A stretch of 64,000 bases of DNA from Weissella tructae. Lineage in GTDB: Bacteria > Bacillota > Bacilli > Lactobacillales > Lactobacillaceae. Below the pieces are notes generated by a model. It ran no database searches, was not told the origin of the DNA, and saw nothing but the letters and a program-made list of their open reading frames with translations. This document shows positions 27,448 through 36,945 of this stretch, in pieces (position 1 is the stretch's first letter; every line of letters starts with the position of its first letter). The DNA lies in assembly GCF_000732905.1 (NCBI RefSeq), contig NZ_CP007588.1, positions 1-64,000 of the forward strand, written 5' to 3'. A program made the position numbers and the translations under genes.

Positions 27448-27590
27448 TATACTAAAACAAATCAAATAACGCTTGAGAGTATAATAGTTGGAGAATGGCC
27501 AACGAGTATCTACCTTTGTCCCTAGACGAAGACTACTCCCTTAAACGAAAAAACACCCATTCCTATTGCAATGGGTGTTTTTTGTTTATT
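27448..27590 (+). promoter_or_regulatory. Guanine-class purine riboswitch of pbuX-xpt
   Basis: An extended -10 (TGCTATACT, 27445-27453) precedes an aptamer at about 27474-27541 with core GAGTATCTACC and GACTAC. The specificity base, position 74 in the Bacillus subtilis xpt aptamer, is C (27533), which selects guanine or hypoxanthine over adenine. P1 partners are GAGAGTA and TACTCCC. The terminator AAACACCCATT/AATGGGTGTTT lies at 27549-27584. Ligand binding should switch transcription off. Confidence 0.93.
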
Positions 27591-35416: not shown

Positions 35417-35710
35417 ATGATGAAGTTAAAAAAGTACTGTCAAAGTTGTGGCATTAAATTGACCGCTGAGAATGCAGGTACAAATGCAGATGGATCAGAA
35501 AGTCATCTGTATTGTGGTGTTTGCTTTGTAAAAGGACGTTACACACAACCATATTTAACGTACCGTGATATGGTTAAGCGTGGATATGTGTCATTTAAAG
35601 AACAAAATTTACCTTGGTGGCGTCGTGTTGCATGTATTATTGCATTCCCAATATTTTTGCGTACTTTGGCCCGTTGGCGTAGCGAGGTGTGTCTTAAAAA
35701 GATATTGTAG
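35417..35710 (+). CDS. Small zinc-ribbon protein
   Basis: A 97-residue protein with a treble-Cys zinc site: CQSCGIKL near residue 8 and YCGVCFVKG near residue 33, four cysteines in CxxC pairs. The rest is basic and ends in a short hydrophobic stretch (RVACIIAFPIFL), possibly membrane-associating. Proteins with this N-terminal ribbon are common but uncharacterised. An ATG at 35420 is an equal alternative start. It probably shares transcription with the YitT gene. Confidence 0.82.
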   Translation: MMKLKKYCQSCGIKLTAENAGTNADGSESHLYCGVCFVKGRYTQPYLTYRDMVKRGYVSFKEQNLPWWRRVACIIAFPIFLRTLARWRSEVCLKKIL

Positions 35711-35983: not shown

Positions 35984-36169
35984 TTGATTTTTATATTCAG
36001 AGACGGTATTATAATAAATGTTGAAAGGGCGACCTTTCGACATCCCATATAGTAACATACACTACTCATATTTTCGCAGCTTTCCCAACTGCGAACCTAC
36101 TCCGATTCCCTGTCTTTCCCAGCCTGTCTTGATCCGAAAAAGCCCTGGACTCCCAACCAGGGCTTTTTT
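35984..36169 (+). ncRNA. C-rich small RNA A (promoter included)
   Basis: The promoter is TTGATT (35984-35989), a 17-bp spacer and TATTAT (36007-36012), giving a start near 36019. The RNA opens with hairpin GTTGAAAGG/CCTTTCGAC (36020-36041). A second hairpin TTCGCAG/CTGCGAA exposes loop CTTTCCCAA. A single-stranded stretch contains several TCCC/TTCCC repeats. The terminator AAGCCCTGG/CCAGGGCTT (36140-36165) has loop ACTCCCAA. UCCC-type unpaired motifs are typical of Gram-positive RNAs that pair with SD sequences. The 66-codon frame across it runs through the terminator and is not coding. Confidence 0.7.
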
Positions 36170-36265
36170 GTTGCATTTTTTATCTATTTATATAGATAAA
36201 AGAATGGAAACCACATAAAATCAAAAAAATACTTATTTAAGGTTAGTTTTATTTGATTTTATTTT

Positions 36266-36483
36266 TTGTTTAAGTTGCAAGCGTTATTATTATTTATGTC
36301 GAAAGGGATAACCAATCGACAACCCAAGCAAAAACATATACTCATAATTGTCATCTGATGAAGATGACAGCTCCTATTCCTAAATTGGGTGTTCGAGAGA
36401 ACATCTGTTAATTGTCTACATATATGCCCCTAACATATGTGTAGACTAGAACGACCACGAAACCTCATTCGTGGTCGTTTTTT
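36266..36483 (+). ncRNA. C-rich small RNA B, related to RNA A (promoter included)
   Basis: The promoter is TTGTTT (36266-36271), a 16-bp spacer and TATTAT (36288-36293), with the RNA starting near 36298. The 5' part resembles RNA A: TGTCGAAAGGG...ACC...TCGACA.CCC, then AACATA and CTCATA. A hairpin TGTCATCT/AGATGACA follows, then unpaired CTCCTATTCC, then a strong hairpin GTCTACATAT/ATATGTGTAGAC with loop containing GCCCC. The terminator ACGACCACGAA/TTCGTGGTCGT ends at about 36483. The shared 5' end with a different 3' half suggests duplication and divergence. Confidence 0.7.
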
Positions 36484-36578: not shown

Positions 36579-36734
36579 ATGAAAGATAAAGCTGTACATA
36601 TGGAAAAGTTAATTGTGCTATTTTTAGCGATGTTGTTGGTGGGAGGGGCTTGTTTAGCAATTACAGGTCACTACACACACTATACATTTGGGCAACAAAC
36701 GCCAGCGCAAGAACAACAAAACTTGGTTTATTAG
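36579..36734 (+). CDS. Small single-pass membrane protein
   Basis: A 51-residue protein with a charged N-terminus (MKDKAVHMEK), one membrane helix at about 11-29 (LIVLFLAMLLVGGACLAI) and a polar Gln-rich tail. GGAGG lies 4 bases before the ATG, and a consensus-like promoter lies upstream. An in-frame ATG at residue 8 is possible but lacks an SD. I do not recognise the family. It sits between the two small RNAs and the metK riboswitch. Confidence 0.68.
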   Translation: MKDKAVHMEKLIVLFLAMLLVGGACLAITGHYTHYTFGQQTPAQEQQNLVY

Positions 36735-36805
36735 TTTGGAGTCTTGATTCTCCTAGCTAAACCAGTTAGAATAATTACTTAGACAAAAAACAAATAATCA
36801 GACAA

Positions 36806-36945
36806 CCTATCAAGAGTTCAGGGAGGGAGTAGACCCGATGATCTGGCGCCAGCTTACCCCTATTTGGGCGATGTGGTAATTTCTAGCAGATAGGCACATA
36901 TCGAACCCCGACATGTTGCCTAGTATCAGGTATGTCGGGGTTATT
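36806..36945 (+). promoter_or_regulatory. S-box (SAM-I) riboswitch of metK
   Basis: P1 pairs CCTATC (36806-36811) with GATAGG (36889-36894). The aptamer core shows TCAAGAG, GAGGGAGTAGACCCGATGA (kink-turn region) and GTGGTAATTTCTAGCAGA. The terminator AACCCCGACAT/ATGTCGGGGTT lies at 36904-36942. A TAGGCA/TGCCTA pair can form the antiterminator. The P2/P3 junction (ATGATCTGGCGCC) departs from the usual GAAGCCCGGCAACC. SAM binding should stop transcription before metK. Confidence 0.85.

Follow-up and report, generated by a model that had tools for sequence, protein, structure and literature searches.

The locus upstream of metK

In the window (the whole analysed stretch of 64 kb, which constitutes the beginning of a 1.36 Mb genome, labelled G000), two units lie on the plus strand between a gene encoding a zinc-ribbon protein (35417-35710; Pfam) and metK (Table 1). 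Their predicted starts (~36019 and ~36298) and their terminators place them where a sequence-only reading of this DNA had put a pair of C-rich small RNAs, and two further elements of that reading were recovered, namely the 5' module shared by the units (a GUYGAAAGGG hairpin followed by AACAUA and CUCAUA) and the stretches of UCCC or CCCC that are present in both. Downstream of its 5' hairpin, unit 2 consists of a single-stranded stretch (CCCAAGC...ACUCAUAA), a hairpin, the single-stranded CUCCUAUUCCUAAAUU, two hairpins, of which one has a GCCCC loop, and the terminator.

Table 1. Predicted features of the two units (positions in the window).
Feature	Position	Strand	Basis and remarks
Unit 1, predicted csRNA-like small RNA gene	36019..36170	+	~150 nt; fold z -7.1, homologues, compensated pairs in seven orthologues
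Unit 1 promoter-like site, TTGATT-17-TATTAT	35984..36012	+	promoter scan; without TTTAAG box
Unit 1 5' hairpin	36018..36043	+	fold; 6 of 9 pairs changed on both sides
Unit 1 second hairpin, loop ACAUACAC, then CUCAUA	36047..36071	+	fold; near-invariant in seven orthologues
Unit 1 hairpin, CUUUCCCAA loop	36073..36095	+	fold, alignment
Unit 1 mostly single-stranded CCUACUCCGAUUCCC...UUUCCCAG, candidate anti-Shine-Dalgarno segment	36096..36124	+	shortening relative to G021 falls here
Unit 1 terminator, CUCCCAA loop	36135..36170	+	terminator scan, fold, compensated pairs
Unit 2, predicted csRNA-like small RNA gene	36298..36483	+	~186 nt; fold z -8.4; R1 E 1.4e-17 (unit 2 is in the R1 training set)
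Unit 2 CiaR-type promoter (predicted)	36236..36290	+	TTTAAG 36236, TTTTAT 36247, TTTATT 36258, TTTAAG 36269, -10 TATTAT 36285-36290
Unit 2 5' hairpin	36298..36320	+	fold
Unit 2 single-stranded CUCCUAUUCCUAAAUU, candidate anti-Shine-Dalgarno segment	36371..36386	+	fold
Unit 2 hairpin, AUGCCCC loop segment	36414..36446	+	fold
Unit 2 terminator	36448..36481	+	terminator scan, fold

A scan for a conserved unit-1 string retrieved five named records (two of W. viridescens and one each of W. halotolerans, W. uvarum and W. minor), all of them Weissella, in agreement with the earlier attribution of the RNAs to this genus. With regard to synteny, the units are kept upstream of metK, whereas their adjacency is not, since genes intervene in other species: in G015 a catalase gene (Pfam) separates unit 1 from unit 2, in G005 and G017 a 487-aa frame with a start as in the G015 catalase lies between them, and in G008 the place is taken by genes for a GntP permease and a pyridine-nucleotide oxidoreductase (Pfam). 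No gene lies between the units in G000 and G021, and they adjoin in the window because none intervenes here. Judging from this gene order, we take the units to be paralogues, each at a conserved place of its own ahead of metK; the earlier description as a duplicated tandem pair is not supported as it stands, and tandem duplication was rejected as the pair's origin in view of the genes that relatives hold between the units. (In G002, locus L210, the catalase frame is present only in pieces, while it is whole in G015, G005 and G017.)

The space between unit 2 and metK holds a 51-aa frame (36579-36734) that had no Pfam match; its counterpart in G021 has 53 aa, and a 255-aa frame lies there in G008. 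The metK leader (36804-36896) scored 41.3 bits against the SAM riboswitch (S box; gathering score 44.4, E 1.2e-7 over 1.3 kb) and is probably a divergent SAM-I aptamer, and a purine riboswitch at 27457-27555 reached 49.9 bits, over its gathering score (Rfam). In another genome (G004:C18:157689-158882) the metK matches form six blocks of ~200 bases in reversed order, perhaps an oddity of assembly or storage.

Both units fold considerably better than their shuffled versions (unit 1: -48.9 kcal/mol against a shuffled mean of -25.9; unit 2: -66.5 kcal/mol against -33.3; none of 200 shuffles matched either unit), and the region contains five terminators where shuffles led us to expect 2.0. Structural conservation was assessed on an alignment (A2) of seven unit-1 orthologues (G000, G021, G008, G015, G005, G002 and G017), in which RNAalifold proposed three helices with 29 pairs, 98.5% of the cells pairing. 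Eleven of the 29 pairs are compensated (both sides changed), a number reached by none of 500 shuffles and to be read with the fact that the consensus structure was derived from the same seven sequences on which the pairs were counted; when the partner was slid by 1-3 columns, at most four compensated pairs were obtained. Further pair types in the seven orthologues showed no excess (20 versus 20.9 in shuffles). The second hairpin of unit 1 barely varies (seven of its eight pairs are invariant) and is hence conserved as sequence, not a proven helix. In single folds, several orthologues possess extra UCCC-loop hairpins downstream of the CUCC stretch and ahead of the terminator, and the window's unit 1 is ~32 nt shorter than that of G021 (150 versus 182 nt), the missing part comprising one hairpin together with half of the GAUCG..GAUCC module described below. 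On this body of sequence evidence we regard both units as real, conserved small RNA genes. A reading as a small protein was dropped, given that the ORF from 36018 runs through the terminator and that the helices are compensated.

An RNA family across the genus

When 60 related genomes were searched at the DNA level, unit 1 was recovered in G021 (81%) and G008 (75%), numerous short and weak matches turned up besides (33 of the 60 genomes at E<=1), and reading of the matched loci revealed an RNA family with a common plan. From 16 of the 19 first-collected copies (positions -62 to +32; alignment A1, from which unit 1 of G021 and two L009 copies close to those of L008 were omitted) we built a sequence-only model, R1, that spans the promoter and the 5' hairpin. 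At E<=1e-6 it found 56 matches in 26 of the 28 genus genomes (none in G007 and G026), so that the search for conservation, with these relatives and the 11 compensated pairs of the seven unit-1 orthologues, came out in favour of the sequence-only reading. At E<=1 all 28 genomes had matches, the weak ones being mostly due to chance. The strong copies in G000 are the two units (1.4e-17 and 3.0e-10, both used in building R1), and the next two matches in this genome lie at 0.018 and 0.11.

As R1 stops at the 5' hairpin, the features downstream of it provide an independent test. A terminator was found within ~260 nt of all 56 R1 matches (control, opposite strand of the same stretch: 17 of 56), CTCCT downstream of 50 (control: 6) and CTACTCCT downstream of 44 (control: 0), and 37 of the 40 matches outside the model-building set carry CTCCT. 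Of the 56 matches, six lack CTCCT: three are copies of unit 1 (in G000, G021 and G008, each containing CCTACTCC), one lies in G012 (with CTACTTCT) and one each in G002 and G017; in the window, CCUACUCC is present in unit 1 and UUCCUAAAU in unit 2.

A wider set of 67 copies from 25 genomes was obtained by selecting 66 distinct copies for CTCCT, ACTCC or CTTCT, dropping two antisense rows and adding three. Because these copies were partly chosen for CTCCT-like strings, motif counts in them lean upward (the R1-match count is free of this): CUCCU(U)AA occurs in 47 of the 67 (shuffled mean 1.3) and the exact nonamer [AC]UCCUAAA[AC] in 10 (shuffled mean 0.7). CCC is in slight excess (2.8 versus 2.4 per RNA in shuffles), and single-position covariation of the hairpins, which were not in register across the 67 copies, was left out. 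The module composed of GAUCG, a CCC-loop stem and GAUCC directly 5' of the terminator was present in 24 of the 67 copies (shuffled mean 0.4), for example in unit 1 of G021 (L220:819-1000) and of G008 (L219:846-1028), and is disrupted in the window's unit 1. Many family copies lie away from metK, in part in tandem arrays. At one such locus (L227, G015:C8:20700-22000), three short csRNA-like copies with full sets of half-sites stand in tandem.

Promoters and the CiaR-type regulator

The sequence-only reading had assigned to each unit a -35/-10 pair of its own, which stands for unit 1 in the form of a weak site (9/12 in the promoter scan) and fails for unit 2, where the scan found no such pair and where TTTAAG-type half-sites recur instead every 11 bp, the last of them 10 bp before TATTAT. 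In the region as a whole, -35/-10 sites showed no excess (12 versus 11.9 in shuffles). Judged by these elements, the promoter of unit 2 is of an activator type, unlike that of unit 1.

The same arrangement recurs in the family: NTTAAG stands exactly ten bases before a -10-like box in 53 of the 56 R1 matches (a count that leans towards the box, since R1 includes the promoter), a half-site (NTTA/NTTG) follows 11 bp further upstream in 51 and another NTTAAG 33 bp upstream in 31, the typical promoter being TTTAAG-N5-TTTCAG-N5-GTTATT-N5-TTTAAG-N10-TATTAT. The three matches lacking the NTTAAG box are unit 1 of G000, unit 1 of G021 and one match in G019. Among the other unit-1 orthologues the box reads TTTAAG in G008, G005, G002 and G017 and CTTAAG in G015. 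Unit 1 was probably once under the same control as unit 2 and has an ordinary promoter now in this lineage, and, being boxless in G000 and G021 and boxed in relatives, it leaves a pair that may now answer to different signals. Neither the CiaR-type promoter nor the genus-wide family had been seen in the sequence-only reading.

In the text available of Marx et al. 2010 (PMC3091779), csRNAs are predicted from TTTAAG-N5-TTTAAG, ten bases, TATAAT and then a terminator, with matches mismatched at the G of TTTAAG dropped. Unit 2 presents TTTATT-N5-TTTAAG-N10-TATTAT, in which the downstream half-site and the spacing are exact and the upstream half-site is a variant (TTTATT mismatches at that G), with a TTTAAG 33 bp up. 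The two-box pattern occurs once on the plus strand of G000 and not on the minus strand (control: 0 and 1) and, as unit 2 fits it, this sole match is unit 2; single TTTAAG-N10 boxes in G000 are not commoner than the control (30 versus 36). We further counted the two-box pattern in three families (f4, f8 and f3, covering 102 of 246 genomes of the order), with the reversed pattern as control: the 33 f4 genomes (32 with the regulator) gave 152 versus 73, the 35 f8 genomes (1 with the regulator) 23 versus 56, and the 34 f3 genomes (27 with the regulator) 89 versus 92, i.e. no excess. The box counts hence lend support from f4 and none from f3. One f4 genome, G101, has nine two-box sites and, among the matches listed, no CiaR-type protein at E<=1e-50.

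G000 encodes five OmpR-type regulators, of which one (G000:C1:1287526-1288215, minus strand) is CiaR-type. Its recognition helix (VVEVYMSNLRKNL) is the nearest to that of CiaR (VVEVYVSKVRKKL, as given in the accessible part of Marx et al. 2010, PMC3091779), it is 49% identical to an f4 protein with the helix VVEVYVSKIRKKL (the other four regulators reach at most 35.5%), and it is set apart from other regulators with a clade support of 0.999. From the helix VVEVYVSKIRKKL and the csRNAs found in f4 (see below) we infer that f4 is the streptococcal family. The CiaR-type protein is present in all 28 genus genomes (67-100% identical) and, at E<=1e-50, in 90 of the 246 order genomes. Moreover, 20 of the 24 resolved genus genomes (4 of the 28 being unresolved) have TTTAAG no more than ~200 bp ahead of the regulator gene, and in at least ten genomes outside the genus (G038, G046, G069, G092, G100, G102, G154, G183, G209 and G216) a two-box site is found ~100 bp or less upstream of the regulator match, pointing away. 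The adjoining kinase resembles f4 kinases in its kinase part only (36-40% identity, 175-181 bits); compared with the next own kinase (35-37%, 133-138 bits) it is hardly above in identity and higher in score, and a likeness so limited is in keeping with Marx et al. 2010 (PMC3091779), who remark that they found no CiaH beyond the streptococci. The regulator's own mRNA, which seemed a possible target in G000, was dropped because conservation across the genus does not extend to its translation start.

Relation to known RNAs and proposed function

The Weissella RNAs share with the csRNAs of Streptococcus (as described in the available portions of PMC3091779 and PMC8186281) a TTTAAG-type repeat, spaced by N5 and placed ten bases ahead of the -10; the intergenic position; a 5' stem-loop and a terminator, with an unpaired region that carries anti-Shine-Dalgarno and CAU segments; the occurrence in several copies, some in tandem; and a CUCCUAA-type motif. 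Two of the features by which csRNAs are recognised are found here too: both units are, from their sequence, small intergenic RNAs with an intrinsic terminator, and the genome encodes a CiaR-type response regulator. They differ from csRNAs in belonging to another genus and family, in typically having a third and a fourth half-site upstream, in a half-site beside TTTAAG that is usually NTTATN and not NTTAAG, in the greater length and extra UCCC-loop hairpins of many copies, and in a motif that is usually CUACUCCU(U)AA and not the exact nonamer, which some streptococcal csRNAs also lack (PMC3091779, available part). Furthermore, no RNA homology was detectable: R1 matched no csRNA of the f4 genomes, so that a common descent of the RNAs with these is unsupported, and their likeness could reflect convergence under a shared regulator. 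When applied to the 246 order genomes with stricter filters, R1 matched five, three of the genus and two with weak matches (4.5e-4 and 6.5e-4) whose loci held nothing csRNA-like on reading.

As a positive control, we took eight genomes chosen for having box sites (41 matches, 30 of them read). Two f4 genomes have csRNA-like RNAs with CUCCUAAC and AUCCUAAAC (the streptococcal csRNA motif) and a terminator, the f3 genomes G146 and G210 have short RNAs with ACUCCUAAUUUUUUC and a terminator, and in a third f3 genome (G138) ACUCCUAA follows the box and the terminator test failed; three f1 genomes outside the genus yielded no clear csRNA among the sites read, and the remaining box sites precede protein genes. 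Among the literature listed there was no report of csRNAs or of a CiaR-type sRNA regulon outside streptococci, a weak negative, as the lists were capped and most subscription journals lay outside the search.

With regard to other C-rich regulators, the units resemble RsaE/RoxS and FsrA in having C-rich segments, which those RNAs direct against Shine-Dalgarno sequences (PMC4132741). No Rfam family matched either unit at its gathering score, and all unit matches at E<=10 over 1.3 kb lay below the families' gathering scores (FsrA, for instance, 16.9 bits with a cut-off of 80). By inspection, unit 1 follows the plan of LhrC, with three redundant UCCC/CU-rich sites (the UUUCCCAA loop, the GAUUCCC/UUUCCC stretch and the CUCCCAA terminator loop), whereas unit 2, with a terminator loop AACCUC, does not. 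This resemblance is one of plan and not of descent. The regulator of LhrC is LisR, other than the CiaR-type protein (no LisR site consensus is known according to the available text of the LhrC paper, PMC4132741), and the sequence relation, checked through Rfam only, gave no match.

Target prediction over the 38 gene calls of the 64-kb window showed no clear excess of pairing at translation starts over shuffled segments. The anti-Shine-Dalgarno segment of unit 2 scored -10.2 on translation starts versus -7.9 on coding windows, a value only slightly better than that of its shuffles (-9.6, sd 0.38); on the same gene calls, neither the other unit-2 segment (-7.5 versus -7.5) nor the two unit-1 segments (-6.3 versus -7.9 and -13.1 versus -13.6) did better than shuffles.

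Taken together, we consider it probable that the units are genes for csRNA-like trans-acting RNAs, that the CiaR-type regulator activates unit 2, and that the RNAs block ribosome binding, much as translation starts are described to be blocked by csRNAs (PMC8186281) and by LhrC (PMC4132741). The reading builds on the observed conservation as RNA, the terminators, the boxes (including those in the regulator's own promoter) and the presence of the regulator, and the kind of RNA named by the sequence-only reading, csRNA-type and trans-acting, is well supported by anatomy, conservation and promoter type. We call the RNAs csRNA-like by promoter, plan and regulator presence, a basis of which RNA homology or dependence on CiaR is no part; so defined, they lie outside the genus from which csRNAs were described in the literature searched. 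The response regulator, encoded elsewhere with a kinase beside it, would bind the TTTAAG half-sites and thereby activate the transcription of unit 2, while unit 1, probably once under the same control, would be transcribed from its ordinary promoter in this lineage. Through three kinds of unpaired segment, namely anti-Shine-Dalgarno (CUACUCCUUAAA-type), anti-start-codon (ACUCAUA-type) and UCCC loops, the RNAs would then pair with several mRNAs and repress them by blocking ribosome binding.

The binding of the regulator to its boxes is a prediction, and four further OmpR-type regulators are encoded in the genome; trans-acting sRNAs governed by one of these or by a different factor, outside a CiaR-type circuit, would also fit the lack of a box excess in the f3 genomes, 27 of 34 of which have the CiaR-type regulator. 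We deem this unlikely, in view of a recognition helix nearest to that of CiaR and of the boxes in the regulator's own promoter, both within the genus (20 of 24 genomes) and in at least ten genomes outside it. A role in which the UCCC loops titrate an RNA-binding protein or G-rich RNAs, with mRNAs not blocked directly, would accord with the repeated CCC loops and the conserved GAUCG..GAUCC module (24 of 67 copies); it appears very unlikely to us, given that the commonest conserved segment looks anti-Shine-Dalgarno (CTACTCCT in 44 of 56 matches), that the UCCC sites of LhrC in like positions pair with an mRNA (PMC4132741, available text) and that CCC is only slightly over shuffled. We consider it very improbable that the units act in cis on the gene that follows, as a leader or an attenuator, or that they are functionless remnants. 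Copies of the unit-2 type do precede metK in all seven genomes compared, but each unit has its own terminator, metK has its own SAM-riboswitch-like leader, and the genes after unit 1 vary among species; numerous further copies are found at other loci, some of them arrayed in tandem, and decay is made less likely by the compensated pairs.

Retaining csRNA-like RNAs with a CiaR-type regulator as the preferred reading, we tentatively extend it, with somewhat less than even confidence, to a broader proposal: the CiaR-csRNA circuit may be an old system of the Lactobacillales. In Weissella the RNAs would have grown into long forms with many hairpins and several redundant UCCC sites, frequently arrayed in tandem; the window's unit 1 would have left the circuit by loss of its box, and the RNAs of G146, G210 and perhaps G138 (in another family) would be further members. 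If this holds, the presence of this promoter code in food-associated Weissella, along with the regulator and the RNA plan, would make the circuit older than streptococci, Weissella would provide harmless hosts for studying it, and its many natural variants, which differ in how many pairing sites they have and of what kind, would allow one to ask why such RNAs are multi-copy. Lastly, at one locus (L225, G011:C20:323100-324300) a CiaR-type box precedes a small frame starting with MFGMNMLNKKVDRAVRAYKSMD, with no obvious sRNA, and this frame is possibly a small-protein member of the regulon.
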